A stretch of 52,251 nucleotides of DNA. Origin: Candidatus Delongbacteria bacterium (GTDB lineage: Bacteria; UBA4055). The notes beneath the pieces were generated by a model that was not told the DNA's origin, searched no databases, and saw only the letters and a list, made by a program, of their open reading frames with translations. This document shows positions 2,421-51,500 of this stretch, in pieces; within the stretch, counting starts at the first letter, position 1; the number at the start of each line of letters is the position of its first letter. The stretch spans positions 1-52,251 of the forward strand of contig JAFGVM010000008.1 of assembly GCA_016937995.1 (NCBI GenBank). The letters run 5' to 3'. Position numbers and translations under genes: made by a program.

Positions 2421-5204
2421 ATGAAAACATCAGAACACGCAGACAGGACCGAGAAGCTGGTCGGTATCAGAGCTGAGGATATCCACAAATGGATAGACGG
2501 GTTCTTTGATTTTGACGGATTTGAAGATTTCCTTCGTTCAGAGAAACTTACCGGTTATGATCCATATGACCATAGAAAATTCAGGCATTGTATTGAAGCT
2601 TTGGATGAAGCATACCAAACTTTTGCGGATAAATACACCAAAGAGCAGATAAAAGCTGTCTTTGAATCACATATCAAGGATGATTACAACGGATATATTC
2701 CCCACAGAGAAGATTTTGAGAACGGTACTTTCACTGAGCATTACCATGAAAATGATGGCAGGGAAGAAAGTGAATCGATCCTGAGTGAAACTGAACTTTC
2801 GGATTATTTCAAAGGTAAATTCTATACTCAGAGTAAGAAAAAGAATAAAAAAATTACTACCGGTTTTCAGTTAAGGATCGTTCTACCGACAATTCTGGCT
2901 ATAATTTTATTCGTATCGTCAGTTTTTACAGTGATACTACCGGTTTTCAGAAGCAATATGCTCGAAAGAAAGAAAGAAATGATCAAAGAACTTACTGCAG
3001 CCGCTATAAGTGTCATTGAATTTAACATCGACTTGGAAAAGAAAGGAACTCTTACGAGAGAGGAAGCTCAGAATAAATCGATCATTGAAATAGAAGCCAT
3101 GAGATATGGTGATGAGAACAAAGATTATTTCTGGATCACTGATATGTACCCGAGAATGGTAATGCATCCCTATAGAACTGATTTGAAGGGACAGGATCTT
3201 TCAGATTTTAAAGATGTCATGAACAAGAGTGGAAAATATCTCTTTGTTGAGTTCGTAAAGATCGTAAAAGCTCAAAAAGAGGGATATGTAGAATATCTCT
3301 GGCAGTGGAAAGATGATGAGAGCAGGGTCGTTCCAAAGCTTTCTTTCGTTAAAGGTATTCCTGAATGGGAATGGATCATCGGTACAGGTGTATATATTAA
3401 TGATGTAGAAGATGAGATAGCACTTCTTTCAAAAAATATAACGATAATATTTTCATTCATTGCCGGACTTTTAATACTGATATTGACCTATGTGATCTTC
3501 CAGAGCAGGAGAATAAACAACGATCTTCTAAAAGCTGATGCGGGTCTTATTGAAGCTAAAGACAGGTATAAAGCATTAGTAGAAGCATCAAATGAAGGTC
3601 ATATACTTGAAGTCGAAGGTGAAAATGTCTATTCAAATTTCACTTTGCAGAAAATGCTCGGATACAGCGGAAAAGAGATATCCTCTATGAAAACAGTGGA
3701 TCTTTTAGTCCCGGATTCCAAAGTAAATGAAGAAGGTCTGAATCATCTGAAGAAACTTTCTTCAGGGAAAACTATGTCAGGTGAATTTGAAGCTCAGGTA
3801 TTAACAAAGACCGGAGAGATCCTGGATGTAGTCATCACAACTGCAAGGATATTCTTTCTGAAAAAGAAAGGTCATGTGATCTCAGTCAGAAAAATATTGA
3901 GAAAGAAATCCAATGATATGATGATCTCCTACAGTGGAAACCAATATAATCCCGGAAGTATTTTTGCAACAAAGAAGGTCAAAGATATCTGTAGAAAAAC
4001 CACCGAAGAAGACAAGTCTGACACAGAGAAGATTTCATCAGAAACACCGGTATTTGAAGCTCTCGAAGTAATGAAGAATTCTGAAAGAGACAATCTAAAT
4101 GTTATTGATGAAAACGGAAAGATCATCGGAATTGTAGGCTATTATGACATCGCAATGATGTACTCTGGATTGCCTACAGGAATGCTTTTTGAAATTGAGA
4201 ACAGTGAAAATGTAGGTCATGTTATAAGAACTCTCAATAGATTACCGGACCTTATCAAGGAAATGACAGCACAGGGGATAAGATCTGACACTCTCCGGGA
4301 AACTATAAGTAAGATGTATACTGCTGCAATTAAGTTATTTATAAAAATATCTTTAGAAGAATCAGGAGAACCTCCAGTTAAATTTGCATTTCTTTCTCTC
4401 GGAAGTACAGCAAGACAGGAAATGACAATGTTCTCCGATCAGGATAATGCACTGATATTTGAAGATACACAGGATATAGATAAAGCTAAAAAATATTTCA
4501 TCAGGTTTGCCGATAAAGTATGTACAAAGCTGAATAAAGCAGGTTACCCGTTCTGTCCGGGTGGAATTATGGCAGTAAACCCAAAATGGTGCCTGTCATT
4601 GACAGAATGGAAAGATAATTTCACCGAATGGATCGAAAATGCAACACCGGAATCGATCTTAGAGATCAATGTCTTCTTTGATATTCGTTGTGACTACGGA
4701 GAAGAAAAATTAGTTACGGATCTTCAGGATCATATCAAAGAAAAAACAGAGCAGAACCCGGCATTTTTCATAAATTTTGCCCAGAATTGTCTAAGATACA
4801 GAGAACCTTTGAATCTTCTCGGAAGGATCAAAGCCGAAAGCAAAGATGGAGCTAAAACTTTCAATATTAAGGATAATTTGATCCCGATAGTAAATTTTGG
4901 CAGATTATATGCGCTGAAGAACCATGTAACCGAACCGAGTACGGTCAAAAGATTACATGCTCTTTATGAAAAAGATATTCTAAAGGATAAGGAATATCAT
5001 GAAATAGTGTATGTATTCAATCATTTATGGCATTTAAGATTTTATAATCAGATAATATCTCATTCAGAGTTGAAAAAAGCAGATAACGAGCTTGATCTTG
5101 AGCAGTTAACAGATATTGAGAGATTGAATTTAAGGAATGTGCTGGCGGAGATATCGAATTTCCAGGCAAGGATCAGTAGCGATTTTCTGGATGGAACAAT
5201 GTAG
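2421..5204 (+). CDS. Membrane sensor: unknown N-terminal domain, Cache, PAS, CBS, DUF294 nucleotidyltransferase
   Basis: 927 residues. Residues 1-110 form a soluble conserved-looking module (EDIHKWIDGFFD, HIKDDYNGYIP) that I cannot name. TM1 is at about 150-176 and TM2 at about 338-360; between them is an extracytoplasmic single-Cache domain (DYFWITD, GTGVYINDV). A PAS-like domain covers about 380-490 and one CBS motif about 540-585. The C-terminal half is a DUF294 putative nucleotidyltransferase: GSTARQE (661-667) followed by D673 and D675 fits the GS-x-R-x-E/DxD pattern of GlnD-like enzymes, then a DUF294 C-terminal helical domain. It probably senses a periplasmic ligand and transmits the signal to nucleotidyl transfer, but the target is unknown. 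No clear Shine-Dalgarno is seen. The TAG stop lies at the start of a palindromic element (5206-5223). Confidence 0.85.
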   Translation: MKTSEHADRTEKLVGIRAEDIHKWIDGFFDFDGFEDFLRSEKLTGYDPYDHRKFRHCIEALDEAYQTFADKYTKEQIKAVFESHIKDDYNGYIPHREDFENGTFTEHYHENDGREESESILSETELSDYFKGKFYTQSKKKNKKITTGFQLRIVLPTILAIILFVSSVFTVILPVFRSNMLERKKEMIKELTAAAISVIEFNIDLEKKGTLTREEAQNKSIIEIEAMRYGDENKDYFWITDMYPRMVMHPYRTDLKGQDLSDFKDVMNKSGKYLFVEFVKIVKAQKEGYVEYLWQWKDDESRVVPKLSFVKGIPEWEWIIGTGVYINDVEDEIALLSKNITIIFSFIAGLLILILTYVIFQSRRINNDLLKADAGLIEAKDRYKALVEASNEGHILEVEGENVYSNFTLQKMLGYSGKEISSMKTVDLLVPDSKVNEEGLNHLKKLSSGKTMSGEFEAQVLTKTGEILDVVITTARIFFLKKKGHVISVRKILRKKSNDMMISYSGNQYNPGSIFATKKVKDICRKTTEEDKSDTEKISSETPVFEALEVMKNSERDNLNVIDENGKIIGIVGYYDIAMMYSGLPTGMLFEIENSENVGHVIRTLNRLPDLIKEMTAQGIRSDTLRETISKMYTAAIKLFIKISLEESGEPPVKFAFLSLGSTARQEMTMFSDQDNALIFEDTQDIDKAKKYFIRFADKVCTKLNKAGYPFCPGGIMAVNPKWCLSLTEWKDNFTEWIENATPESILEINVFFDIRCDYGEEKLVTDLQDHIKEKTEQNPAFFINFAQNCLRYREPLNLLGRIKAESKDGAKTFNIKDNLIPIVNFGRLYALKNHVTEPSTVKRLHALYEKDILKDKEYHEIVYVFNHLWHLRFYNQIISHSELKKADNELDLEQLTDIERLNLRNVLAEISNFQARISSDFLDGTM

Positions 5205-5551: not shown

Positions 5552-5794
5552 ATGGACAGAGATAAATTATCAGTACTAGCTATAAGTGACAGCGGATTCA
5601 TTTTTGATCCGGTGACAGGTCATTCATATACTGCAAATGCAACAGGATTAAGAATTTTTGAATTACTTAAAGAAGATAAGTCAGAAGATGAGATAAAAAG
5701 TATTCTGATGGAAGAATTTGAAACAACAGAAGATGAAGTCAGTGTAGATGTGGATGATTTTATTGAGAATTTGAAAAAATATTTTCTCGTGTAA
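5552..5794 (+). CDS. PqqD-like small protein
   Basis: 80 residues, the usual size of a free-standing PqqD. FIFDPVTGHSYTANATGLRI, then a helical region with a hydrophobic ELLKEDKSEDEIKSILMEEF and an acidic C-terminal helix (VDVDDFIENLKKYFLV), matches the PqqD winged-helix fold, in which the central 'N-x-T-G' turn is characteristic. PqqD proteins bind a peptide or substrate and hand it to a modifying enzyme (RiPP recognition element). GGAG stands five bases before the ATG. It leads a co-directional series with an ATP-grasp ligase and a decarboxylase. No radical-SAM enzyme and no obvious precursor peptide are next to it, so its partner is unknown; it may act with the ligase. Confidence 0.75.
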   Translation: MDRDKLSVLAISDSGFIFDPVTGHSYTANATGLRIFELLKEDKSEDEIKSILMEEFETTEDEVSVDVDDFIENLKKYFLV

Positions 5795-5836
5795 GAAAAT
5801 ATTTTTAGTGGTAAGTGATAAGTGGCAAGTGGTCAG

Positions 5837-5870
5837 TTCGTATGGGCACAATATATTGTGCCCATACGAA
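5837..5870. repeat. 34-nt perfect palindrome
   Basis: Two 17-base arms (left arm TTCGTATGGGCACAATA) are exact reverse complements with no loop. Just upstream, 5807-5836 is a run of imperfect AAGTGG-type direct repeats. It lies between the PqqD and ATP-grasp genes. Confidence 0.8.
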
Positions 5871-5887
5871 CCACAACAAACATGAAT

Positions 5888-5913
5888 GTAGGGAACGCCT
5901 AACAGCCGTTCCC
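5888..5913. repeat. GTAGGG-prefixed hairpin
   Basis: GTA followed by arms GGGAACG and CGTTCCC. Same design as the elements at 12110 and 34324. Confidence 0.65.
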
Positions 5914-5928
5914 ATAAATGCAAAAAAA

Positions 5929-5965
5929 GATTGCCACGGATTGTTCACCAATCCTCGCAATGACA
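5929..5965 (+). repeat. GATTGCCACGG...CGCAATGACA element, copy A
   Basis: Nested inverted repeat: outer TTGC/GCAA, inner GGATT/AATCC. It ends 11 bases before the ATP-grasp start codon. Other copies are at 7139, 12197 and 34444, all in the same orientation relative to the downstream gene. Confidence 0.8.
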
Positions 5966-5976
5966 TAGGAAAAAGT

Positions 5977-7014
5977 ATGAAAATAGTCGTAGCAGTCAGC
6001 GGTATTAACGCAGTGGACAACCCGGGTCCGGGAACAGGGATCTGCAAAGCATTGAAAGAAAGTGATCTTGATATAAGAACTATCGGATTGGCTTATGATG
6101 CTATGGAACCCGGCGTTTACATGGACAACATTATTGATAAAAGTTATATCATGCCATATCCATCCGGCAGTAGAGAAGCTTTTATCGAAAGGATCAAGCA
6201 TATACATTCAGTAGAAAAAATAGATGTTATAATATCAGCTTTAGACGCAGAATTACCAATCTATATGGATATAGAACCGGTCCTTCAGGAACTTGGAATA
6301 AAGATGCTGATCCCTACAAAGGAAATGTTCAAAACAAGGGATAAGCTGAGGCTGAAAGAATTGGCGGAAACGATCGGTGTAAAAGCTCCCGAATACAGAA
6401 GCTGTACTTCTATCAGAGATCTTCATGATTCAACAGAGAATGTCGGATTTCCATGCATGGTAAAAGGTCCGTTCTACGAAGCTTTCAAAGCAAATAATAT
6501 CTCTGAAGCGGAAGGTTACTTCCATAAGATAGCAATGGCATGGGGCTATCCGATCATCGTACAAAAATTCATTACAGGTGATGAGTATGATGTCATCGGT
6601 TGCGGAGACGGGAAAGGGAACGATATAGGTGTTTTTGCGATCAGGAAAATGACGATCACAAAACTCGGAAAGGTCTGGAATGCGGTTAGCATAAAGAATG
6701 AAAAGCTCATCGAAGCAACAAGGAAGGTAGTTAAAGGTCTTTCCTGGAGAGGTGGATTTGAGTTTGAAGTTCTGGTCGAAAGTTCATCGCAGGATATTTA
6801 TGTACTTGAGATTAATCCAAGATTTCCCGCATGGGTTTATTTTGCAGCGGGATGCGGTATAAATCTTCCAGAGAGAATGGTGAAACTTCTGCTGAATAAG
6901 GAGTATGAAACAAATTCAAATTACGACAGTGGAAAATTAATGATAAGATTCACAAATGAAATGATCAAAGATATAAAGGATTTTGAACAAATATCGACAA
7001 CAGGGGAAACATAA
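5977..7014 (+). CDS. ATP-grasp ligase (PylC/CarB-like)
   Basis: 345 residues from the ATG at 5977, chosen because AGGA lies six bases upstream and because earlier in-frame codons run through the palindromes and repeat A. Residues 1-115 are a pre-ATP-grasp Rossmann-like domain (NPGPGTG at 15-21). The ATP-grasp core follows, with KGPFYEA near 163, basic and acidic ATP and metal residues in GDEYDVIGCG (201-210) and the hallmark LEINPRFP (277-284), where Glu and Asn bind magnesium. Enzymes of this type join a carboxylate to an amine through an acyl phosphate. Between PqqD and a PLP decarboxylase it probably makes an amide or peptide-like bond in a small molecule; the substrate is not known. Confidence 0.85.
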   Translation: MKIVVAVSGINAVDNPGPGTGICKALKESDLDIRTIGLAYDAMEPGVYMDNIIDKSYIMPYPSGSREAFIERIKHIHSVEKIDVIISALDAELPIYMDIEPVLQELGIKMLIPTKEMFKTRDKLRLKELAETIGVKAPEYRSCTSIRDLHDSTENVGFPCMVKGPFYEAFKANNISEAEGYFHKIAMAWGYPIIVQKFITGDEYDVIGCGDGKGNDIGVFAIRKMTITKLGKVWNAVSIKNEKLIEATRKVVKGLSWRGGFEFEVLVESSSQDIYVLEINPRFPAWVYFAAGCGINLPERMVKLLLNKEYETNSNYDSGKLMIRFTNEMIKDIKDFEQISTTGET

Positions 7015-7019
7015 AGATA

Positions 7020-7044
7020 GGGGTTAGGGATTAGGGGTTAGGGG
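7020..7044 (+). repeat. TTAGGGG tandem, potential G-quadruplex
   Basis: Four G-tracts (4, 3, 4 and 4 G) separated by TTA or ATTA, beginning six bases after the ATP-grasp stop codon. It fits the G3+N1-7 quadruplex pattern on the coding strand. Confidence 0.75.
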
Positions 7045-7047
7045 TTC

Positions 7048-7073
7048 GTAGAGACGTTGCCCTGCAACGTCTC
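7048..7073. repeat. GTAGAGA-prefixed hairpin
   Basis: GAGACGTTGC and GCAACGTCTC pair perfectly over 10 bp around CCT. It could also terminate or attenuate transcription, though no T-run follows. Confidence 0.75.
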
Positions 7074-7098
7074 ACAACACACCACGACCAATAATCCC

Positions 7099-7122
7099 GT
7101 AGGGGCATTATTTATAACGCCC
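7099..7122. repeat. GTAGGGG-prefixed hairpin
   Basis: GGGCATTAT and ATAACGCCC around TT, one mismatch. Confidence 0.65.
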
Positions 7123-7138
7123 GAAAAACGAAAAAAAA

Positions 7139-7173
7139 GATTGCCACGGATTTTAAAAATCCTCGCAATGACA
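7139..7173 (+). repeat. GATTGCCACGG...CGCAATGACA element, copy B
   Basis: Same element as at 5929, with an A/T-rich centre. It ends 22 bases before the decarboxylase start codon. Confidence 0.8.
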
Positions 7174-7195
7174 AACATAAAACACAGGTGACATT

Positions 7196-8548
7196 ATGAA
7201 AAAAGAATATATTAAACCGTACATTAAGAAACAAACAGCCGGAATTATGAATAAATTCGGTGTTTCTTACAATAAAGGTCACAGAGAAGATATTTTAGGT
7301 ATTCCTATCGGGAATTTCACCGATAAATTCGGATCCCCCGTCTTCGTTCTCAGTGAAAAGCTGATCAGAGAAAGATATAGAAAAATATATTCGCACTTTT
7401 CAAGTAAATATCCCAAAGCAAAAATGTCATGGTCGTATAAGACCAATTATCTCGATGCCGTTTGTTCAATAATGCATCAGGAAGGGGAAACTGCAGAAGT
7501 AGTTTCAGACTTTGAATATCAGAAAGCGAGAAGACTGGGAGTTCCAGGGAATAAGATAATTTATAACGGTCCATATAAACCGATAGAATCTTTGAAAGTT
7601 GCTTTCCAAGAAGGAGCAATGGTCAACCTTGATAATTTTGATGAACTTATAAAAGCAGAAGATGCCGCAAAGAGTATTAATAAAAAAGTTCCCGTCGGTA
7701 TCAGAGTGAATATGGACACCGGAGTATATCCTCAGTGGTCAAGATTCGGATTCAATATAGAAAATAACAGTGCATTCAATGCCGTAAAAAGGATCCAGCA
7801 CAGTGAAAATCTTTACTTAGAAGGAATTCATTGTCATATCGGAACTTTCATGCTTGATCCGAATGCGTACAGGGAAGCTGTGAAAAAAGTCGTTGCTCTG
7901 ATGAGAAAGATCGAAATTATGTTCAAAATAAATATCAAATATCTTGATTTCGGTGGAGGTTTTCCTTCAATGAATAAACTGAAAGGAACATATTTACCTC
8001 CTGAAGTTTCAGTTCCACCTGTTGAAGAATTCATTGATGCAGTGGCAGATACCTTATTAGAGGAACTTAAACCGGATGAATATCCTGATGTTTATTTAGA
8101 AACCGGTAGATCTATCATTGATGAAGCAGGCTGGTTGATAACTTCAGTTGATGCAGTGAAAAGGCTTCCCGACGGAACAAAAAGTTATATAATTGATGCA
8201 GGTGTAAATTTATTATATACTTCGACCTGGTACAATTATAAGGTCGAAATTGACAGAGAGCTTCACGGAGCTTATGAAAATTCAGTGATCTACGGACCTC
8301 TCTGCATGAACATTGATGTCGTTGTTGAAAGTGCATTTTTACCACCTTTACCAATAGGTACAAGGCTGATTTTATCTCCAATGGGAGCTTACAATGTTAC
8401 TCAGTGGATGCAATTTATAAGATACAGACCTGCTGTTGCAATGATAATGGAGGATGGTTCACTTGAGGAAATCAGAAGACCTGAAACTCTTGATGATGTG
8501 GTCGGACCTGAAAGAATACCAGAAAAATTAAAGAAGTTTGAGCTATAG
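7196..8548 (+). CDS. Fold-III PLP-dependent decarboxylase (LysA/DapDC-ODC superfamily)
   Basis: 450 residues; AGGTG is five bases before the ATG. The alanine-racemase-like barrel carries the PLP lysine in SYKTN (K82), HCHIGT and GGGFP for phosphate and ring contacts, and ETGRSI. The C-terminal barrel has YGPLCMNIDV, the GPxCxxxD motif with the catalytic cysteine of this family, and GAYN. These features support an active decarboxylase of the diaminopimelate, carboxynorspermidine, ornithine or arginine type. About 35 extra N-terminal residues precede the domain. Lysine biosynthesis neighbours are absent, and a PqqD protein and ATP-grasp ligase lie upstream, so a role in a dedicated secondary pathway is more likely than LysA itself. 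The next gene's ATG follows its stop directly, implying translational coupling. Confidence 0.85.
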   Translation: MKKEYIKPYIKKQTAGIMNKFGVSYNKGHREDILGIPIGNFTDKFGSPVFVLSEKLIRERYRKIYSHFSSKYPKAKMSWSYKTNYLDAVCSIMHQEGETAEVVSDFEYQKARRLGVPGNKIIYNGPYKPIESLKVAFQEGAMVNLDNFDELIKAEDAAKSINKKVPVGIRVNMDTGVYPQWSRFGFNIENNSAFNAVKRIQHSENLYLEGIHCHIGTFMLDPNAYREAVKKVVALMRKIEIMFKINIKYLDFGGGFPSMNKLKGTYLPPEVSVPPVEEFIDAVADTLLEELKPDEYPDVYLETGRSIIDEAGWLITSVDAVKRLPDGTKSYIIDAGVNLLYTSTWYNYKVEIDRELHGAYENSVIYGPLCMNIDVVVESAFLPPLPIGTRLILSPMGAYNVTQWMQFIRYRPAVAMIMEDGSLEEIRRPETLDDVVGPERIPEKLKKFEL

Positions 8549-10624
8549 ATGCGAGAAAAAAATAAAATCATCGTACTATTTGAAGACCTTACGGGGTCAT
8601 TTTCGAATTTGATCTTCATCAAAAGTAAAATTGTCGGACTTTTGCTTTTTGTCTGTACACTTTTCAATCTGAATATTGCATCTCAGGGAATTATCTCTCT
8701 AGTTGTGGCTGTCCTGTTTGCAAGGTTCATCGGCATAAAAAAGGATGACCCGATAAATAAATTATACAGTTATAATGCTCTACTGACCGGTTTCGCAATA
8801 GGATTCTTATTTAAAGTGACTTATCTGTCTATTATTATGACAGTTGGAATGAGCATAATGACAGTTCTTCTAACCTACACATTGAGCTCGGTACTGTATA
8901 ATTTATTCAAGCTGCCGGTACTGAATATCCCATTCACGATCTCAGCAACAATAATTTATTTATCTTCAAGTAAGTACAGTAATTTGATCGTAGATTCGTT
9001 CTACAGGCAGGATCATTTTAATTTAGATTTTATTCCCGGATACATTCAGGGATTGCTCAGAGCAGCAGGAATACTGGTATTCATGCCTTACGATATTATC
9101 GGGATAGTCGTACTTCTGGCAATATTGTTCTATTCCCAGATAACTTTTTTTGTCACGATATTTTCATATTATACAGGGATATTATTTCTGGCATTATTGA
9201 AAGGGAGTCTTCCTTTAGCTTTTGCAGAGATATCTTCATTTAACTTTATACTGGTCGGTATTGCTCTCGGTGGAATGTTCCTTATTCCATCTAAAAGGAC
9301 CTATCTGCTTACTTTCACTGCAGTATTAGCTTCAGTGTTTATCATAGACGCAACTTCAGTATTCTGGGTATCTTTCGGAATACCAGTATTTACACTTCCG
9401 TTCAACCTTACGGTTCTGTTATACATCTATGTCCTGGGCAGTGTGAAATATCCAATGATGAACTATACTTCTCTGGATCAACCTGAAAGATCACTGGTAA
9501 ATTTCCTGAACTACAAAAACCGTTTCGACTGGATCACTCCGTCAATAAATCTTCCATTTATGGGTAGATGGACAGTATATCAAGGATTCAACGGGGAGTG
9601 GACACATAAAGGTGTGTGGAAATATGCCTATGATTTTGTCATTGAGGATGATGAAGGTAAAACTTACAAAGGTAACGGATCAGAAAAAGAGGATTTCTAC
9701 TGTTTCGGTAAACCGGTAATCTCTCCAATTGACGGAACTATTGTTGAGACATATGATGACCTGGAAGATAACGAACCAGAGCAGGTCGATAAGGACAACA
9801 ACTGGGGGAATTATGTAATGATCCATTCCCCGCTGGGATATTACATTGAAATATCTCACCTGAAAAAAGATTCGGTCAAGGTAAAAATAGGAGATTATGT
9901 CACAAAAGGAACACCATTAGCAGAATGTGGTAATTCCGGGTACTCACCTCAACCCCATTTGCATATTCAGCTGCAATATTCTCCATATATAGGTTATGCA
10001 GGATTTGAGTTTAAATTCAACAGTCTAAAGTTAGCTGACAGTGGTACAATAGATCCTGATTTATTAGTCAAGGGCAACAAGGTAATTCCGCTTACATCAT
10101 CCAAAACGATCAGCAGGAAATTTCAGTTCATTCTTGATGAGGAATTCAATTATGATATTTATGAAAATGATGTAAAAGCAGCTGAACTCAGTTTAGCAGT
10201 TAAAATGGAATCTGATGGAACTTATTATTTCTCTGATACTGATGGCAATAGACTTTATTTCGGCAAAGACAAAGACAGATTCGTATTCTTTAAATATTCA
10301 GGTGACAAAAGAACTTATCTCAGATATTTTATGATCGCGATGCCTTCTCTGTCACTAACAGATGAAAATAATTTCACATGGTCCGAATATTTATCTGATG
10401 ATCTTTTGTACTCGAAATTTCCTAAAATACTGAAATCATTCTATCATTCTTCTGATACGACCACTGGCAGGTATACAAAAGTTAAGGAAAATATTATTGA
10501 AGGTAAGATCATTAAGAATAAAACAGGTCTTTTTGATACTGAGATCACACTTTGCGACTTCAAAGGGTTTAAGGATATCATTATAAATGAGAGTGAAAAG
10601 AAGATCTGGATGACAAAAGTATGA
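8549..10624 (+). CDS. Urea-transporter-family channel fused to an M23 metallopeptidase domain
   Basis: 691 residues. Residues 10-300 are very hydrophobic, with two related halves. YNALLTGFAIG near 75-85 and GIPVFTLPFNLTV near 277-289 match the urea-transporter (UT) fold. Residues 335-500 form an M23 (LytM-like) domain with the zinc pattern H353, D362 and H470-L-H472 plus H437, so the ligands look intact. A further 190 C-terminal residues are beta-rich and unassigned. UT proteins are passive channels for urea or similar amides; M23 enzymes cut peptidoglycan cross-links or bind cell wall. The fusion may couple a cytoplasmic-membrane channel to periplasmic wall remodelling or anchoring. The start abuts the decarboxylase stop, and the stop overlaps the next start by four bases (ATGA). 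Confidence 0.85.
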   Translation: MREKNKIIVLFEDLTGSFSNLIFIKSKIVGLLLFVCTLFNLNIASQGIISLVVAVLFARFIGIKKDDPINKLYSYNALLTGFAIGFLFKVTYLSIIMTVGMSIMTVLLTYTLSSVLYNLFKLPVLNIPFTISATIIYLSSSKYSNLIVDSFYRQDHFNLDFIPGYIQGLLRAAGILVFMPYDIIGIVVLLAILFYSQITFFVTIFSYYTGILFLALLKGSLPLAFAEISSFNFILVGIALGGMFLIPSKRTYLLTFTAVLASVFIIDATSVFWVSFGIPVFTLPFNLTVLLYIYVLGSVKYPMMNYTSLDQPERSLVNFLNYKNRFDWITPSINLPFMGRWTVYQGFNGEWTHKGVWKYAYDFVIEDDEGKTYKGNGSEKEDFYCFGKPVISPIDGTIVETYDDLEDNEPEQVDKDNNWGNYVMIHSPLGYYIEISHLKKDSVKVKIGDYVTKGTPLAECGNSGYSPQPHLHIQLQYSPYIGYAGFEFKFNSLKLADSGTIDPDLLVKGNKVIPLTSSKTISRKFQFILDEEFNYDIYENDVKAAELSLAVKMESDGTYYFSDTDGNRLYFGKDKDRFVFFKYSGDKRTYLRYFMIAMPSLSLTDENNFTWSEYLSDDLLYSKFPKILKSFYHSSDTTTGRYTKVKENIIEGKIIKNKTGLFDTEITLCDFKGFKDIIINESEKKIWMTKV

Positions 10625-12045
10625 TACCAAGGTTAGTTTATTTATTTTTTGTTCTGATATTAAACAGTGTATTGCTTTCTTCTCAGATAGATGAGTTGAT
10701 AAATAGAGGCAACGAATTATACTTTAACGGTGATATTGAAAAAGCTCTGTATAAATTTTACGAAGCGGAAAAATTAAATCCTTTTGACCTAAGACCCAAG
10801 GAGGGTATTTACAACTCCTGTATCTATTTGGGTAAGTACAAAACTGCGAACAAATACGCAAAGAAGCTATTTTCTCAGTCAGCTTCAGATATAAATACCG
10901 ATCGTGTGATATATACTGATGCTTTACTGGGTAAAACAAATGAAGCTGATAAATTACTGGATTCAGATCAAAGTTATGAAAGAAAAAAATATCTATTGTC
11001 TTTGACGGGTTGGGGACTATACAACAGCGGACATTACATAGAAGCGTTAAAATGGTTTGAAAAAGTTAGGAACCATGGTTTTAGGAGTTCCGATTTTTCT
11101 GATGGTTATTCTTTATCCAGAGATAAACTGCGGTCAGAAAGGAAAGTTGCCGACATTTCAATTTCACCATTTATTTTTAACGGAAGTCAGAATTTTGATG
11201 GTGGATTAAACTTAAATTATAATTTCAATTACGGAAAGTATGACAAAAGGTATGACCTCGACCTGGTAATGCAGTACACAGTAATGGACCCCTCGAGAGT
11301 ATCGGAAAACCCCAATTTTTACGGAGATATAGGTCAGTACGAAATATTCTGGAGTTATGAGCGCTTAAATTCTTCCACAAATTCATTTTATAATGCAGGG
11401 AAATTGAGTTTTATAACAAATGACTATGTGAAATTTTCTCTTACGGGTCTAAGTGGTCTGAAATATAGAGTGAACGATCAATGGTTATTCGACTCTTACC
11501 TTTCAGGTTCGATAATAGGTTATGCATACTATGATATTTTAGATGTAAGTATTTTCACTGGAAAGCAACCACCTCCACCAAGAGCTAATTTCAATGAATA
11601 TTACAATACTTTGTTTTCAATGCAGTCAACCACAAATGCAACTTATTACACAGATTATTTTTATATCAATGGAGAAATATCTTTGATAAAATTATTGAAC
11701 TCATCTTATTTTTCTGATATGAGAATTTATGATGACAGAGATGATCTGCCTGATGAAGTGGTCGATTCAGATATAATTGAATATTTCTATACCGTAAGGG
11801 CGGGTATAACGACAAGAAATCTCGATATTTTCGGAAGTTTTTCAGAGGGGAATAATTTTTTATTGAACTCAGATGGCGGTAGGTTTTTGAATACAACAGA
11901 ATTCGGTTATGAAAATGGTTTTAGCGGCGGAATAACTTTTAATAAACTATTTCATAAATGGGTTGTATCATATATATTTTCACAGAGTAATTATGAGGAT
12001 TATAATATAATAACTAACACATTGGTCGCGAGTTACAGCTGGTAA
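10621..12045 (+). CDS. TPR protein with C-terminal outer-membrane beta-barrel (YaiO-like)
   Basis: 474 residues. A signal peptide (MIPRLVYLFFVLILNSVLLSSQ) is followed by two to three TPR-like helical pairs (INRGNELYFNGDIEKALYKF) to about residue 165. The rest is alternating beta strands rich in Tyr, Phe and Asn, ending in SYSW, a terminal aromatic typical of outer-membrane barrels. The layout resembles YaiO-type proteins, but I cannot confirm membership. It overlaps the UT-M23 gene by four bases, so it is translated with it. It could give the pathway an outer-membrane exit or a scaffold for the wall-associated fusion. Confidence 0.7.
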   Translation: MIPRLVYLFFVLILNSVLLSSQIDELINRGNELYFNGDIEKALYKFYEAEKLNPFDLRPKEGIYNSCIYLGKYKTANKYAKKLFSQSASDINTDRVIYTDALLGKTNEADKLLDSDQSYERKKYLLSLTGWGLYNSGHYIEALKWFEKVRNHGFRSSDFSDGYSLSRDKLRSERKVADISISPFIFNGSQNFDGGLNLNYNFNYGKYDKRYDLDLVMQYTVMDPSRVSENPNFYGDIGQYEIFWSYERLNSSTNSFYNAGKLSFITNDYVKFSLTGLSGLKYRVNDQWLFDSYLSGSIIGYAYYDILDVSIFTGKQPPPPRANFNEYYNTLFSMQSTTNATYYTDYFYINGEISLIKLLNSSYFSDMRIYDDRDDLPDEVVDSDIIEYFYTVRAGITTRNLDIFGSFSEGNNFLLNSDGGRFLNTTEFGYENGFSGGITFNKLFHKWVVSYIFSQSNYEDYNIITNTLVASYSW

Positions 12046-12074
12046 ATAAAGAATGAATATTCAATATCGAACAC

Positions 12075-12092
12075 GTCCCGATTGATCGGGAC
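12075..12092. repeat. Palindrome GTCCCGAT/ATCGGGAC
   Basis: Perfect 8-bp arms around TG; same arms as the element at 5245. Confidence 0.7.
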
Positions 12093-12109
12093 AATGTCCA
12101 AATAAAACC

Positions 12110-12135
12110 GTAGGGAACTGTTTCAAACTGTTCCC
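12110..12135. repeat. GTAGGGA-prefixed hairpin
   Basis: GGGAAC and GTTCCC outer arms with GTTT/AAAC inside and one mismatch. Confidence 0.65.
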
Positions 12136-12149
12136 GAATGTACACAGGG

Positions 12150-12167
12150 ACGAACCCATGTGTTCGT
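12150..12167. repeat. Hairpin ACGAAC/GTTCGT
   Basis: Six-bp arms around CCATGT. A related element with CGAACCCAT and TGTTCG is at 35537-35561. Confidence 0.6.
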
Positions 12168-12196
12168 TTGGAAGGGTTGCCGTTAATGCATAAATA

Positions 12197-12231
12197 GATT
12201 GCACGGATTTCATAAAATCCTCGCAATGACA
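12197..12231 (+). repeat. GATTGCCACGG...CGCAATGACA element, copy C
   Basis: One C shorter than the other copies (GATTGCACGG). It ends 24 bases before the start codon of the TPR gene. Confidence 0.75.
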
Positions 12232-12255
12232 AATAAAAAAATAGGAGAAAAATAG

Positions 12256-12864
12256 ATGAAGTACAAATTAATAACATTATTGATAATATCTGTAAGTTTA
12301 TTTGCTGAGTTAAGTTTCAAGGATATTCAAAATGCATACACGAGTTCATATTCTTACGAAACTGCCCAAAAGTACGATAAGGCCATTTCAAGCTTGAACA
12401 AGGTCATAACTGCTTATCCAAACGGATATACAGTTAATTATAGGCTAGGTTGGTTATATTATCTTGCAGGAAATTATGCTAATTCGGTTAAGCATTTGAA
12501 TGCTGCATTATTGATCTATCCATATTCTGTAGAAGCTTTGAATACTGTAAATTTAGTCAATGTTGCAAAATTGGACTGGGATAAAGTTGAAGCTCAATCA
12601 ATTAACATTTTCAAGATAGATTATTACAATTATTATGCAAATTACTGGTATTCTGTTGCTCTAATGAGGCAGAAAAAATACGATCAGTCCATAAAGATCG
12701 CAAATAAAATGCTTGGTGTTTTTCCTACTAATGTCACTTTTTTAAATATTTTAGCTGAAAGCACATATCTTTTGGGAAGTACTGAAGATGGATTGAAGAT
12801 ATTTGAGTCTGTGGTTATTCTGGATAAGGATAATGAGACAGCGAAATATTATCTGAATAAGTGA
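12256..12864 (+). CDS. Periplasmic TPR protein
   Basis: 202 residues with a signal peptide (MKYKLITLLIISVSLFAEL) and about four tetratricopeptide repeats, for example YDKAISSLNKVITAYPNGY and YDQSIKIANKMLGVFPTN. AGGAG lies seven bases upstream of the ATG. TPRs bind peptides or proteins. It closes the 5552-12864 series but is separated from it by a 210-base repeat island, so co-regulation is likely but not certain. The repeats resemble those in the N-terminus of the preceding barrel protein. It converges with the gene ending at 12870, with only five bases between them. Confidence 0.7.
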   Translation: MKYKLITLLIISVSLFAELSFKDIQNAYTSSYSYETAQKYDKAISSLNKVITAYPNGYTVNYRLGWLYYLAGNYANSVKHLNAALLIYPYSVEALNTVNLVNVAKLDWDKVEAQSINIFKIDYYNYYANYWYSVALMRQKKYDQSIKIANKMLGVFPTNVTFLNILAESTYLLGSTEDGLKIFESVVILDKDNETAKYYLNK

Positions 12865-44804: not shown

Positions 44805-47800
44805 ATGAAAAAATTCCTTGTTGCAGTTTTAGTTATTTCAGCCATGCTGTCTGCCGCTTTTGTAGATCAGACCAGAGCTAAAAAAGTAGCTGAAAATTAT
44901 TACAAGAACTACGCACCGGCTTCCGCTAAAGGTAACACAGTGCAAAAAGTAGCTGAAAAGTTATATAATGGTCAGGTAACATGGTATGCAGTATCGTTCG
45001 ATCAGGGATTTGTTATCGTTTCAGCTGATGATGCAGTGAGATCGATACTGGGATATTCGTATGATGGTGAGATCACAGAAGATCTTTACAACATGCAAAA
45101 TCCATTCATTAACAGATTTGACGCATATGACAAGCAGATCGTAGAGGTTAGAGAAACAGGTTATGTGGACAATGATGCACAAACTGAGTGGAAAAATATC
45201 GAAAATAATATTTTTCCAAAAGCATCAAAAGCAATTGTTGTTGATGCTTTGGTAGAATCAAGATGGGGTCAGGGATGGCCGATGAACACATTATGTCCTC
45301 TTGACGGTGGTGTTGAAACAGCTGTTGGTTGTGTTGCAACTGCTATGCATCAGATCATGAGATTCCACAGAGCTCCATTGAATGGTATTAGTTCACATTC
45401 ATATTTCTGGACAGGTTCATCAAGTTCAGGAACTTTGGCGGTAACATTCTCTGATTATAGCTATGATTATGATCTTATGCCATTAACAACTTCAAGTGTA
45501 ACACAGGCAGAGCTGGATGAACTTTCAAAATTATCTTATCACTGTGGTGTTTCTGTTGATATGGATTATGATATTTTTGCGAACGGTGGATCCGGTGCAT
45601 ATTCTACAGATGTTGTTTATGCTTTAGAAACTTATTTTGGTTTCTCAACAGATGCGACATATATATCTGTAAATACGCCAACCGACCCTACAGTTCAGGC
45701 AACAAACATACAGACTGATCTTGACAACAGTCGACCAATATATTGGTCAGGCTCAGGTGTCGATGGTGGTCATGCTTTTATTCTTGACGGCTATACAAAT
45801 GACTACTGGTATCATTTTAACTGGGGTTGGAATGGTTCTTCAGATGGTTGGTTCCAGCTTACTTCATTAAATCCAAATAGTGACTTCACATCAAGTCAGG
45901 CAGCAGTATTCCACATATGGAGTAATGAATCCGAATATGCAGAATGGCCGGCACCTTCAAATTTGGGTGGTTCTATTGCCAACGGAGAAGATGTAACATT
46001 AACATGGACAGCTCCAGCTGGTACAAAGTTAGCTACATTGACAGGTTATAAGATATTTAGAGGTGGTGTTCAAATAGCTACTACTAATGCCTCAACAACT
46101 ACTTATCTTGATGCTGACCTTTCAGCCGGATACTATAATTATTTAGTCAAGGCAACTTATTCAGGTCCGGATGGAGAATCCCATATTTCAAATAACTACT
46201 ATGCAGCAATCGTACCTGATGAAAATTACCCAATTCCTTTGTACGTTGAAGCTACAGTAGCACCTTTTACAAGACAGGATGTAGATCTTGTTTGGACAAA
46301 GCCGTTTACACTTCCAGTATATTTCACAGAAGATTGGGAAACAACATCTTTCGAAACAGACTGGCTGACCAGAAGAACAACCAGTGTTTATGGCGGGAAT
46401 AATGATAATTTCCAAGATGGCACTCCAGCTGATCCAAACTGGTTCCATGAAGATGGCTCAGGTTTAGGTGTAGAGTATATTCATTCAGGATCATGGTCTG
46501 CGGCAATTGGTTATACAGCCCCGGATTTTACATGGTTGTTTTCACCGTTTATTGATATAGGTGCAAACTCAGAATTAAGATATTGGGTATGGTGTACAGG
46601 TAATGCTGGAAGTGGTTGGTTGACCAACTACTACATTAACCTTTATAACGGAGATATGACAGAAAGAAACCCTTCAGGTAACGTATACAATGTTGCTCAA
46701 TACATAGGTATAGATGAAGTTTCCGGACAGCAGTATGAAACTGAAGTTGTAGTTGATCTTTCAGCTTACACAGGTAGTTATCGAATTGCCTTTGTTTATG
46801 ATTACACTGACGGATTTCAAATGGCTATAGATGACATTATGGTTGCTGCTGCTTCAAAGCGTGCTCCTGCTGTAAATCCGAATGCGTCACACGAAGTACC
46901 GGAAAGAATTGCAGTTTCTTCGATTTCACCGGATACTTCAGATTTACCGGCAATGAAAGTAACAAAAGCTGCAAAAGGTGACGAACCTACTTCTTATGAC
47001 ATTTATAGGAATGGTTCGTTCGTAGAGAATGTTGCTGTTACCGGTGCTTCGGAAGTTTATTCTGATATTGGTTTCGTTGACGGTAATAACGAATATTTCG
47101 TTAAAGCTCTATATCCTACCGGAACATCTATTGCTTCCGCAAGATCTACAGCTTTCATGGATGCAAATCCAAAACCAGATTATCTTACCGGAATTTTGAA
47201 TGGTTCCAACGATGTGGATCTAAGCTGGTACAAACCTTATTCAAATCCACCGATGTGGTACACATATGCACCAGAATTTGACAGTGCATGGGATTTTATT
47301 GATGGATATGAGACACGTTTGAACAGAACAAGATTCCTAAGTGACCTTGGTTATTTCTATCCTTGTACTGTAGACTCTATAGCAGCAGCATTCTATGAAT
47401 ATACAGATGATCCTTGGCTAAGTGACCAATTCACATTCAAAGTTTACACAACTGATGGTGCCGGAGCGGATTCACTTATCTGGGGTCCAAGTCCTGCTCA
47501 AACAGCTACAAGTGGTTTTTTTAACACATTGGTAGTACCTTCATTATATATGGTCAAAGGATGGTGGGTTGAAATCGATCCTGCTGATAATACAAAAGGA
47601 CATCCTGCTATCATGGTAGACATTCATGATGAAGCAGGTGCAAGTACCAGTTCTTCGACTTACTTAAATGACGGAGCAACAGTTGATGGTTGGTATTCGA
47701 TCAGCTTTGGTGATGAAGGGTATCCTGGAGACTGGATGATCATGAGTTACATTACTTCAGCAACAGCACCTGACGTAACTAAGAGTGGATGGGTCGGTAT

Positions 47801-48308
47801 CACTGAAAGCATGAAATCAACTTCATCTGAGATATTAAATGCGAAAGCGAAGGTTAAAGAAGTTTACGGAAGTGTTGAAAGTAAAATTGATACCAAAGGA
47901 ATGACAAACTATAACATCTACAGGAACGGATCATTACTGGGTACTTCAGCACTTACGACTTATACTGACCTTAATCCAGTTGCGGGTGACAACACTTACT
48001 ACGTAACAGCAGCTTACACTAACCCTGTTGGGGAATCAGCTGGAACTAACTCTGTTGTCATTAATGTAACCGGTGGACCTGTAATTCCGGAAGTTCCTGC
48101 AAATGTCGTTACAAGTATTGTAGGTTCTAACTTGGTAATAGATTGGGATGTATCCGCTGATGCAACAGGATATGATGTTTACTCATCAGATGATCCTTAC
48201 GGAACATTTACATTTACTGCTTCTGTAGGTACAAATCAGTATACCGTTGCAGCAAGCCAGGCGAAACTGTTCTATTACATTATTGCAACAAACACCACAA
48301 AGAAATAG
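44805..48308 (+). CDS. Giant secreted C10-family (streptopain-like) cysteine peptidase
   Basis: 1167 residues. Signal peptide MKKFLVAVLVISAMLSAAF; C10 propeptide about 20-140; catalytic domain about 145-370 with C176 in AVGCVATAMHQIMRFH and H323 in GGHAFILDGY, plus NWGWNGSSDGWF. Then FN3 (383-470), a jelly-roll/MAM-like domain (505-683), FN3 (725-783), a beta domain of unknown type (790-1010), FN3 (near 1045-1100) and a last FN3-like module with SSDDPYGTF and KLFYYIIATN. Streptopain is autocatalytic and cuts proteins; the C-terminal modules probably bind cell surface or substrate. Preceded by the leader at 44708 and followed by a 13-bp terminator. Confidence 0.9.
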   Translation: MKKFLVAVLVISAMLSAAFVDQTRAKKVAENYYKNYAPASAKGNTVQKVAEKLYNGQVTWYAVSFDQGFVIVSADDAVRSILGYSYDGEITEDLYNMQNPFINRFDAYDKQIVEVRETGYVDNDAQTEWKNIENNIFPKASKAIVVDALVESRWGQGWPMNTLCPLDGGVETAVGCVATAMHQIMRFHRAPLNGISSHSYFWTGSSSSGTLAVTFSDYSYDYDLMPLTTSSVTQAELDELSKLSYHCGVSVDMDYDIFANGGSGAYSTDVVYALETYFGFSTDATYISVNTPTDPTVQATNIQTDLDNSRPIYWSGSGVDGGHAFILDGYTNDYWYHFNWGWNGSSDGWFQLTSLNPNSDFTSSQAAVFHIWSNESEYAEWPAPSNLGGSIANGEDVTLTWTAPAGTKLATLTGYKIFRGGVQIATTNASTTTYLDADLSAGYYNYLVKATYSGPDGESHISNNYYAAIVPDENYPIPLYVEATVAPFTRQDVDLVWTKPFTLPVYFTEDWETTSFETDWLTRRTTSVYGGNNDNFQDGTPADPNWFHEDGSGLGVEYIHSGSWSAAIGYTAPDFTWLFSPFIDIGANSELRYWVWCTGNAGSGWLTNYYINLYNGDMTERNPSGNVYNVAQYIGIDEVSGQQYETEVVVDLSAYTGSYRIAFVYDYTDGFQMAIDDIMVAAASKRAPAVNPNASHEVPERIAVSSISPDTSDLPAMKVTKAAKGDEPTSYDIYRNGSFVENVAVTGASEVYSDIGFVDGNNEYFVKALYPTGTSIASARSTAFMDANPKPDYLTGILNGSNDVDLSWYKPYSNPPMWYTYAPEFDSAWDFIDGYETRLNRTRFLSDLGYFYPCTVDSIAAAFYEYTDDPWLSDQFTFKVYTTDGAGADSLIWGPSPAQTATSGFFNTLVVPSLYMVKGWWVEIDPADNTKGHPAIMVDIHDEAGASTSSSTYLNDGATVDGWYSISFGDEGYPGDWMIMSYITSATAPDVTKSGWVGITESMKSTSSEILNAKAKVKEVYGSVESKIDTKGMTNYNIYRNGSLLGTSALTTYTDLNPVAGDNTYYVTAAYTNPVGESAGTNSVVINVTGGPVIPEVPANVVTSIVGSNLVIDWDVSADATGYDVYSSDDPYGTFTFTASVGTNQYTVAASQAKLFYYIIATNTTKK

Positions 48309-48379
48309 CTAAGACCTAACATGATTGTGATGCAATTATGAAGACGATAACTTTATCTTGGTAGTGCAATCATATCTCA

Positions 48380-48416
48380 CATGCAAGAACCCTGTTCTGG
48401 GGTTCTTGCATGATTT
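48380..48416 (+). terminator. Intrinsic terminator after first C10 peptidase
   Basis: CATGCAAGAACCC and GGGTTCTTGCATG 13-bp arms around a 7-base loop, then ATTTTATTTT. Confidence 0.9.
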
Positions 48417-48452
48417 TATTTTGAAAAAATCACCTTCAATTAAATTTAAAAC

Positions 48453-48482
48453 TTGACAACACCTCATTTTATTTTGTATTTT
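48453..48482 (+). promoter_or_regulatory. Promoter of the second C10 peptidase
   Basis: TTGACA, 18 bases, TATTTT, right before the conserved leader block, so transcription should start close to its first bases. Confidence 0.55.
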
Positions 48483-48487
48483 TACTT

Positions 48488-48585
48488 CGCCTATTAAACC
48501 AAGAACATGGTAGATCTGCAAGGAATTATCATGGCGTATCGCATACTGGAAGTAAAAAAACTTAAACTAATCATGAGGAGGATTC
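48488..48585 (+). promoter_or_regulatory. Structured 5' leader RNA of the second C10 peptidase
   Basis: Homologue of 44708-44804. CATGGTAG (48506-48513) pairs with TTATCATG (48526-48533), the GCG/CGC mini-hairpin is at 48534-48542, and the same flanking conserved blocks occur. Arm sequences differ from the first copy at four positions yet stay paired: two full compensations and two changes to G-U. Confidence 0.6.
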
Positions 48586-51500
48586 ATGAAAAGATTCCTT
48601 ATTGTAGTGCTAGTAATTTCTGCAATGTTGTCAGCTGCATTCGTTGATCAAGACGGTGCAAAACAAGTGGCAGAGAATTACTATAAAAATTATGCACCGG
48701 TTTCTGCTAAAGGAAACGAGGTGAAAGATATATTTGCTCATAAGTACGAAGGGCAAATAACATGGTACGGTGTTTCATTTGATCAGGGATTCGTTATTGT
48801 AACTGCTGATGATGCATTAAAGCCGATCTTAGGTTATTCATTCGACGGTAAACTTGTAGATCCTGAAGTAAGGGACGGCGGATTTGCTTTCAAAGAGTGG
48901 TTTGGCTATATGGACAAACAAGTTTTAGTAGCAAGAAAATATAACTATGTTGATGCTAAGGCTCAAACTGACTGGAAAGACATTAGAAATAACATCTTCC
49001 CAAGCTCATCAAAACTTACTTATGTTGATGCATTGGTAAAATCACACTGGGATCAGGTCTATCCTTGGAACGACTTATGTCCTGAAAAATCTATCGGTAC
49101 ATGGACTTATGTTGGTTGTGTTGCTACAGCAGCTTCAATGATCATGAGATATCATGAGTGGCCTCCTACAGGAGATGGATCAAATTCTTACTCTTGGGAT
49201 GGTCGTACTCTTTCTGAAACATTCTCAAATTATACATTCGATTACACAGTGATGAACCACGATGTAAACATAGAGTGGGGACTTTATCCTGAGTACTGGG
49301 AAACTATTGATATGGATGCGGCAGCTATTCAAAACCTGGCAGAATTGAACTATCTTGTAGGTCAGTCTTTTGACATGAACTATGGTGATACTGCTGATGG
49401 TGGATCCGGTGCTAATATGAGCACTGCTTCTACTGCGATGAACACTAACTGGAGATATGTATCTACATACAATACTGTTGGAACACCGACAGATCCATCT
49501 TACATTGCTTCAACTATCCAGGCAGAGCTTGATGCTAAGAGACCTTGGTGGTGGGCAGGTGGAGTTCACTCGTTCATCCTTGACGGATATGCAGATGATT
49601 ACTGGTATCACTTCAACTGGGGTTGGGGTGGTTATCAAGATGGTTGGTTCCAGATCACATTCCTAGTTCCTGACGGTGTTGGATCAGGTGGAGGTGACGG
49701 AGACTATACAGCAAGTCAGATAAGAATATCTTTAGTTCCTGATACAAATCCTTTCACTGCTTGGCCGGCACCAACCGGATTCAACGGAACTTTAGTTAAC
49801 GGTGAAGACGTTCAGTTATCATGGAACGCAGCATCAGGTGCTCAAAGCTATAATGTATGGAAAGCAACTGATATGGCCGGAGCAGTACTTCTTGCGAACA
49901 CTGCAAGTACTTCTTACAATGATAACGATCAAGTGACTGGAGAATACTCTTACTTTGTATCTGCAGTTTACAGCGATGGTGAATCTCACCACACAGACTC
50001 ATACTCAGTTCTTATTGAACCATCGGTTAATTTCCCAACAACAAGATCTTTTGCAGCGGTAGCAGATGGAAGAACAAGTGTTGATCTTACCTGGTTAGAA
50101 CCGTTTACTGGATTTACAAATTTCTTAAATGATTTTGAAGGCGGTGTTATACCTGCAGATTGGTTCCAAAAAACAACAACTGCGCTACCTCCTGATTATA
50201 AAGGCAGTTCAGACAATGTAAGTGATCCAAAACCTCCGGATCGTAGCTGGTTTAAAGACGATTTACTTGATGAGATCAGATTGTTAGATGCTACAACTGC
50301 ACCTCATATTGTATTCAGAGGTGAATATGCATGTATCTTTGCTACTTCAGCGACTACTCATCTATGGCTGATGTCTCCTAACTATACTTTCAATTCAGAG
50401 CATTTCTTCAAATTCTGGACAAGATTCAAGTATGGTGATGGTGCAAGTGGAACTCAGCACCAGATATTCAGTGTGGTTTCTTACGCCGGTGATTTTACTG
50501 ACCAGGCAACTCCAACTACTATCACTACGATAGGTACTTGGGACAGTGCAATTGACCCGACCAACGAATGGGAAAGTGAGTGGAATGTAAGTTTAGCTTC
50601 TCTTGCAGGCCAAACAAAGCACGTTGGTATCATGGTTGAGGCAAATGACAATGATTACTATACTTTCACAATTGACGATATTCTTATCGGTTCTAATTCC
50701 GGTGGAATTGCAGATGATCCAACAGGAATAGCGATCTACAGAAACGGTTCTTTAGTGACTACTGAAACCGGAACTGCTACAAGCTGGACCGATACTAACT
50801 TTGTTGATGGTGATAACACTTACTATCTAAGAGCACTTTACCCAACAGGTGAGTCTTTAGCTTCTAAGTGGATCACAGTGAATATGGATGCAAATCCAAA
50901 ACCTGATTATCTTACAGGCGTTCTTAATGGTTCTGATGATGTTGATCTTGCATGGTATATGCCATACGGAACTCCATCACACTGGGCAACATTGATCGCT
51001 CCTGAGAACTGTACAACTACAGTAGATTACCTTGAAGATACTGATTGTGCTAAAAGAAGAGCTGAAATGAAAGCTGAAAACCTAGGTCTTTATTACCCTG
51101 TAACAATTGATTCTATTGCCGGTGGATTCTTTGAGTGGGATGATGATCTATGGGGATCAAACACTACATTTGTTATCAGACTTTGGGATGGACATCCTCT
51201 TACTGGTTATACTACAACTGTAGGTGATAACTTATTGTATGAAAGTGGTGTATTAACCGCGACACCTGGTGAAGTATACGCAGTTGACTGTGGAACTCAT
51301 GTGTTAAATGGAACTTGGAACGTTGAAGTTGAAACATTTGATACAGCAACAGGTCACCCATCCACTTTAGCAGGTCCTTCAACAGGTGGAATTAACTGTT
51401 ACTTCTTCTACACATTAGAAGATTCATATAACTACTATATTTCTTCAGGTCCAGATCCGTTATCTTACTGTTTAATGGCTTACTGTACAGGTGCGGATCC

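Follow-up and report, generated by a model that had tools for sequence, protein, structure and literature searches.

A six-gene unit conserved across distant bacterial phyla combines an ATP-grasp ligase and an alanine-racemase-fold decarboxylase with predicted channel and envelope proteins

What could be the product of an operon in which a PqqD-like protein, an ATP-grasp ligase and a pyridoxal phosphate (PLP)-dependent decarboxylase are encoded together with a urea-channel-type protein fused to a peptidase and two envelope proteins? This question is raised by six genes on one strand, at positions 5552-12864 of a 52,251-nucleotide window from Candidatus Delongbacteria bacterium (GCA_016937995.1). 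The window, that is the whole stretch of DNA analyzed, is contig C14 (JAFGVM010000008.1) of a 2.75 Mb genome. An earlier interpretation of the same DNA, made without database searches (the sequence-only reading), had proposed a new biosynthesis and export system for a small molecule or conjugate. We find that the six genes recur in the same order in distant phyla and that the system is apparently undescribed. It is about an even call whether they form a dedicated unit for making a small molecule and passing it through the envelope; the product would probably be a small amide-type compound, made inside the cell and let out across both membranes. The features of the unit (TPR, tetratricopeptide repeat; UT, urea transporter-type) are as follows.

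5552..5794 (+): PqqD-like protein of 80 aa with the fold of a RiPP recognition element (RRE; RiPP, ribosomally synthesized and post-translationally modified peptide); PF05402, E 1.7e-12
5795..5976 (no strand): dispersed genomic repeats, outside the conserved unit; 30 partial matches within its own genome
5977..7014 (+): ATP-grasp ligase, carbamoyl-phosphate-synthase-like (PRK12767 type); NF009404, E 8.2e-25, below the NCBIfam cut-off
7196..8548 (+): alanine-racemase-fold (AR-fold) PLP decarboxylase; PF02784, E 4.9e-34
8549..10624 (+): UT-M23 fusion; PF03253, E 4.8e-50, and PF01551, E 1.4e-12
about 8549-9448 (+): urea-channel-fold membrane domain of UT-M23; Pfam, AlphaFold2 model and Foldseek
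about 9536-10033 (+): M23 metallopeptidase domain of UT-M23; Pfam, AlphaFold2 model and Foldseek to M23 enzymes
about 10061-10621 (+): beta-rich C-terminal domain of UT-M23, about 190 residues (505-691); confident model
10621..12045 (+): secreted protein with TPR and a predicted outer-membrane barrel; TPR domain match, position and architecture
12256..12864 (+): TPR protein of the periplasm, N-terminus resembling a signal peptide; conserved final gene of the unit; PF07719, E 3.5e-13

The co-directional arrangement and the two tight junctions given by the sequence-only reading are exact: the TAG of the decarboxylase gene (8546-8548) is followed directly by the ATG of UT-M23 at 8549, and the ATG of the barrel gene at 10621 overlaps the TGA of UT-M23 (10622-10624). 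The wide gaps on either side of the ATP-grasp gene, which starts with the ATG at 5977, are a trait of this genome. Dispersed palindromic and short repeats, with about 30 partial genomic copies, fill 5795-5976 and 7015-7195, and also lie at 12176-12239; in other genomes the same genes abut or overlap. Median gaps there are 2 bp between pqqD and the ATP-grasp gene, 1 bp between the latter and the decarboxylase gene, and 11.5 bp between the decarboxylase and UT genes.

When 84,980 species genomes were scanned with the decarboxylase, 221 relatives emerged, and the 80 best loci were analyzed. These belong to 19 named phyla, some represented by single metagenome bins whose labels are possibly wrong, and the hosts include Aquificota, Thermodesulfobacteriota, giant sulphur bacteria of the Beggiatoa type, Campylobacterota and Bacteroidota. 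Synteny had been set beforehand as the test on which the proposal was to stand or fall; the genes do co-occur elsewhere, and their order is kept across the 80 loci. By profile, the ATP-grasp ligase is present in 75, the UT domain in 73, the PqqD-like protein in 65, the TPR protein in 63 and the common barrel family in 51; all six genes are found in 41, many of the misses being contig ends.

Since these loci had been chosen by their decarboxylase, 386 genomes were surveyed separately with three profiles (decarboxylase, ATP-grasp and UT-M23), each run on its own. Decarboxylase and ATP-grasp were each detected in 27 genomes, 26 of them shared against a chance expectation of about 1.9, and the non-shared genomes (G001 and G009) contain partial matches that are cut off. 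The association of the two enzymes is thus far above chance, and the pair extends beyond the family of the window to 18 genomes in 12 families. A full UT-M23 protein accompanies the decarboxylase in 25 of its 27 genomes, the exceptions being G003, where the contig ends, and G180, which has a UT domain without M23. In four genomes (G007, G019, G154 and G345) the UT part is on a different contig from PqqD, ATP-grasp and decarboxylase, which argues that the link is functional and more than adjacency. The protein families co-diverge (pairwise distances correlate with r 0.82-0.92), and in the decarboxylase tree members of a phylum mostly cluster together, though not throughout (28 label changes vs a minimum of 19). 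The distribution is patchy: in another phylum, the unit is carried by 5 of 39 genomes.

What reaction the unit performs is best approached through the decarboxylase, in which K82 (the PLP lysine), E302xGR305, C370 and Y399 are invariant among 81 sequences. Its nearest solved structure is 7kh2, the N-citrylornithine decarboxylase FigC (profile E 3.2e-84), followed by archaeal LysA (5.3e-66), and BtrK is also among its solved relatives. It scores 198.3 bits (197.4 in the genome search) against the LysA model TIGR01048, vs a cut-off of 297.9, and 212 bits vs the cut-off of 500 for the NCBIfam model of FigC. In LysA, an Arg of the IRPxxY motif and a Glu of the GPxCE motif contact the distal end of diaminopimelate; the corresponding residues here, T342 and M371, are conserved in the 81 sequences. 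Docking of FigC had T327, Y331, M355 and R290 lining the amide and the aliphatic portion of its substrate, with citrate contacted by H357 and R387 (PMC7857480). In the alignment, the amide-lining residues are retained and conserved as T342, Y346, M371 and R305, and the citrate-binding residues are replaced by I373 and Q403, the latter invariant. Judged by these scores and residues, the enzyme is to be read as neither LysA nor FigC. With the amide-lining residues kept and the citrate-binding residues lost, we infer that it would decarboxylate an amide conjugate with a different acyl part, and that this conjugate may be made by the ATP-grasp ligase. Several AR-fold decarboxylases of natural-product pathways act on conjugates (PMC8503589).

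A second outcome that would have refuted the sequence-only reading, homologues assigned to ordinary lysine and polyamine metabolism, did not arise. An identity as LysA or as a polyamine enzyme was rejected on the sub-cut-off score, the T342/M371 exchange, the presence in G007 of a LysA above the cut-off alongside the operon enzyme, and an arginine-decarboxylase/agmatinase cluster that lies apart from the operon, on contig C65 of the genome of the window. This cluster (L106, 3427-8556 of G000:C65) encodes short arginine-decarboxylase-like, agmatinase-like and deoxyhypusine-synthase-like proteins, as well as a histone-deacetylase-like amidohydrolase and a protein of the arginine-deiminase superfamily; it is probably a polyamine route, the names other than that of the decarboxylase being read from sequence.

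The ATP-grasp ligase has domain matches above the cut-offs (PF02655, E 3.3e-08; PF15632, E 8.2e-08). Typical catalytic Lys and Glu/Asn residues are in place, as K124, K164, E279, N281 and R283 (numbered with the codon at 5974, one before the ATG, as residue 1) are invariant across the aligned members. The PqqD-like protein scores 47.9 bits against PF05402 (cut-off 23.4), and its fold is that of a classic RRE (PMC12710340). Among 66 aligned sequences G15, F18, G23 and F70 are invariant, there is no invariant Ser, Cys or Lys, and the C-terminus is variable; the protein is therefore without an obvious attachment site, and a role of its C-terminus as a LysW-like carrier was rejected on account of the variable tail. 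The sequence-only reading had PqqD presenting a peptide or scaffold to a modifying enzyme. For a peptide this is weakened, no more than that, by the absence of a conserved precursor gene beside the operon: clustering of 1122 small open reading frames (up to 900 bp upstream or downstream of the unit) yielded groups restricted to close relatives and none conserved across phyla, a distant precursor being possible. Fusions of PqqD to ATP-grasp, which would prove contact, were not seen in the 80 loci. We prefer a role for the PqqD-like protein as an adaptor for the ligase.

How a product would leave the cell is suggested by the remaining genes. The AlphaFold2 model of UT-M23 (pLDDT 89.7) consists of a complete 10-helix urea-channel fold, an M23 domain and a beta-rich third domain, and the UT domain matches the urea channel dvUT (3me1) in Foldseek with TMt 0.82. 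As in dvUT-type channels, the 10-helix fold, two pore motifs and flanking Phe residues are present, whereas the urea-site positions are changed and the channel is fused to M23 and the beta-rich domain. Among 69 sequences, the positions of the dvUT urea-site residues Q24 and E187 are not conserved (Ala/Thr/Ser/Ile at E187, variable at Q24), and T130 is replaced by Ser or Asn. Urea is therefore not necessarily the substrate. The M23 domain has invariant zinc and catalytic residues (H353, D362, H437, H470 and H472). Positive charges indicate its location: loops on the N-/C-terminal side of the UT domain have a Lys+Arg density of 0.135 vs 0.045 on the opposite side, and this side is the richer one in 68 of the 69 sequences, so that M23 is predicted to lie in the cytoplasm, a prediction that speaks against the action at the wall which the sequence-only reading had assigned to it. 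As a caution, the stand-alone relatives of the M23 domain in other genomes include secreted proteins; three of the stand-alone relatives have several N-terminal membrane helices (L141, L142 and L143).

For the outer membrane, the common barrel family matched no Pfam or NCBIfam name. A relative from locus L022 of Thermodesulfatator autotrophicus models as a signal peptide followed by 14 strands (pLDDT 91.7), and in Foldseek it matches best to OmpG and CymA, both monomeric porins. The likeness is one of predicted strand number and fold, whereas identity is about 12% and the family has its own conserved loop, FAVxNxGFVVYNL. The 14-strand model is that of the L022 relative, with which we equate the divergent TPR-barrel protein of the window by position and architecture, not by sequence; these support equivalence, and TPR-barrel fusions are found elsewhere as well (L072, L079, L082, L083, L085 and L086).

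Taken in order, the genes could act as follows. The ATP-grasp ligase, with PqqD as its adaptor or scaffold, would join an acid to an amino acid or diamino acid as an amide. The decarboxylase would then strip the alpha-carboxylate from the conjugate, much as FigC does with N-citrylornithine, to give a small, weakly charged amide or amine. This compound would exit along its gradient, first by way of the urea-channel-type domain and next through the 14-strand OmpG-like porin, with the TPR proteins in the periplasm alongside the route and the M23 domain at the cytoplasmic mouth of the channel, where it may trim or release the product. The outward direction is suggested by the combination of two passive channels, one per membrane, with a ligase and a decarboxylase, which points to a small and weakly charged compound. 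A close parallel is the rhizoferrin pathway FigA/FigC (FslA/FslC), in which a ligase likewise precedes an AR-fold decarboxylase acting on an amide conjugate and the amide-lining residues are shared. There, however, the ligase is an NRPS-independent siderophore (NIS) synthetase rather than an ATP-grasp enzyme, and citrate is bound by H357 and R387 where the enzyme described here has I373 and invariant Q403. A bolder version of this proposal, which we put forward tentatively, is a hitherto unseen class of pathway in about 20 diderm phyla, with the small molecule built on a peptide template or a carrier, in which a cytoplasmic M23 peptidase fused to the UT pore frees the product of the ATP-grasp ligase and decarboxylase for passive exit through paired channels of the inner and outer membranes. 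This would be a natural-product exporter unlike the pumps of the ATP-binding cassette (ABC), major facilitator superfamily (MFS) or resistance-nodulation-division (RND) types.

Several points weigh against biosynthesis followed by passive exit. An active-looking cytoplasmic M23 domain would be unusual, and in some of its relatives elsewhere a signal peptide or a lipoprotein signal is present; should the domain be periplasmic, neither the argument from topology nor the release step would hold. By sequence, the barrel of the window shows no significant similarity to the modelled family (hhalign probability 1.8%), and the ATP-grasp family is too distant from characterized ligases to name the acid or the amine. 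Finally, as the channels are passive, uptake would be possible with the same anatomy. In that case a small amide would enter through porin and UT channel, be cleaved inside by M23 or another enzyme, and then be processed. The OmpG-like and UT-like folds are those of passive, two-way channels and would serve this equally, yet an ATP-consuming ligase and a decarboxylase of natural-product type suggest synthesis over use, and neighbourhood clustering showed no catabolic enzymes in the conserved set; we regard uptake as quite unlikely. The least probable explanation in our view is cell-wall remodelling, with a LysA-like decarboxylase of diaminopimelate or lysine metabolism and M23, barrel and TPR proteins acting on peptidoglycan and the outer membrane. 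The intact catalytic residues of M23 and the 198 bits against TIGR01048 would fit, but this score is below the LysA cut-off of 297.9 bits, T342 and M371 stand in place of the LysA Arg and Glu, G007 has a LysA besides the operon enzyme, and M23 is predicted to be cytoplasmic.

Two further explanations concern the PqqD-like protein. In peptidase-containing ABC transporters, a C39 cysteine peptidase is fused to the transporter. The UT-M23 protein is similar in combining a transport domain with a peptidase predicted on the cytoplasmic side, but has a passive channel and an M23 metallopeptidase instead, and this likeness raises a RiPP-like route. PqqD would serve as a genuine RRE and bind a peptide whose gene lies elsewhere, the ATP-grasp ligase and decarboxylase would modify or extend this peptide, and M23 would be a leader or scaffold peptidase on the exit channel. 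PqqD- and RRE-dependent RiPP pathways share the small, discrete RRE-fold protein as first gene, and in pyrroloquinoline quinone (PQQ) biosynthesis the processing of a peptide ends in a small molecule. Yet no precursor peptide or peptide-crosslinking enzyme was found in the neighbourhoods, nor any further conserved enzyme family by clustering; no small open reading frame flanking the operon, before pqqD or after the TPR gene, crosses phyla, the intergenic gaps of about 1-12 bp leave no room for one, and the UT domain of G180 lacks the peptidase altogether. We consider this route unlikely, if worth keeping in view. Butirosin biosynthesis follows another logic, in which BtrI, BtrJ and BtrK provide a small carrier protein, an ATP-grasp enzyme and an AR-fold decarboxylase. 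The functional trio is matched here, and BtrK is related to the decarboxylase; the ligase would load the PqqD-like protein covalently, the decarboxylase would act on the loaded amino acid and M23 would release it. However, the small protein of butirosin is an acyl carrier protein, whereas the 66 PqqD-like sequences show no residue comparable to its attachment site and vary at the C-terminus, which makes covalent loading very improbable. Biosynthesis of a small amide-type compound followed by passage out of the cell is the reading we retain. From the sequence-only reading, the conserved pairing of biosynthetic enzymes with envelope proteins stands, and the wall role of M23 is not supported.

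A variant of the locus is found in G180 (L131, G180:C6, 3952-10835), where PqqD, two tandem ATP-grasp proteins, the decarboxylase and a UT domain lacking M23 are followed by Sir2 and an HGSNAT-like membrane acyltransferase. These last two neighbours could mean that the product is acylated or deacylated. Histidine kinases and response regulators are each located near the operon in 14 loci, with a two-component pair following the decarboxylase in L105, which suggests regulated expression. Proteins with DUF4405 and DUF2202 lie near the operon at L104 (10187-12312) and at related loci of Desulfurobacteriaceae and Thermodesulfobacteriota. Upstream of the unit in the window (2421-5204) is a 927-aa sensor-like protein with Cache, PAS, CBS and DUF294 nucleotidyltransferase-like domains, a close relative of which is near the operon in L015, on the opposite side. 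Further away, at 44805-52014, two large secreted proteins of 1167 and 1142 aa are encoded in tandem; their N-termini are alike and, going by sequence, they have the appearance of streptopain-like C10 peptidases. A function in anti-phage defence was rejected, as PADLOC matches none of the six proteins.

A full-text literature search, outside of which many subscription journals lie, returned no publication on the gene set, and the operon is described in neither PMC8939145 nor PMC7794033; the set may have been mentioned before, perhaps in a survey of gene neighbourhoods around ATP-grasp enzymes. In family libraries the genes of the operon resemble LysA, carbamoyl-phosphate synthase, a urea transporter and a peptidase, and if the proposal is true, probable mis-annotations as LysA or urea transporter would be corrected in many genomes. 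As the gene order is kept across distant phyla, a useful and general function is to be expected. If it is the one proposed here, the unit would yield a new class of metabolites, give the urea-channel fold a role other than urea transport, and possibly represent a passive export route tied to a peptidase.

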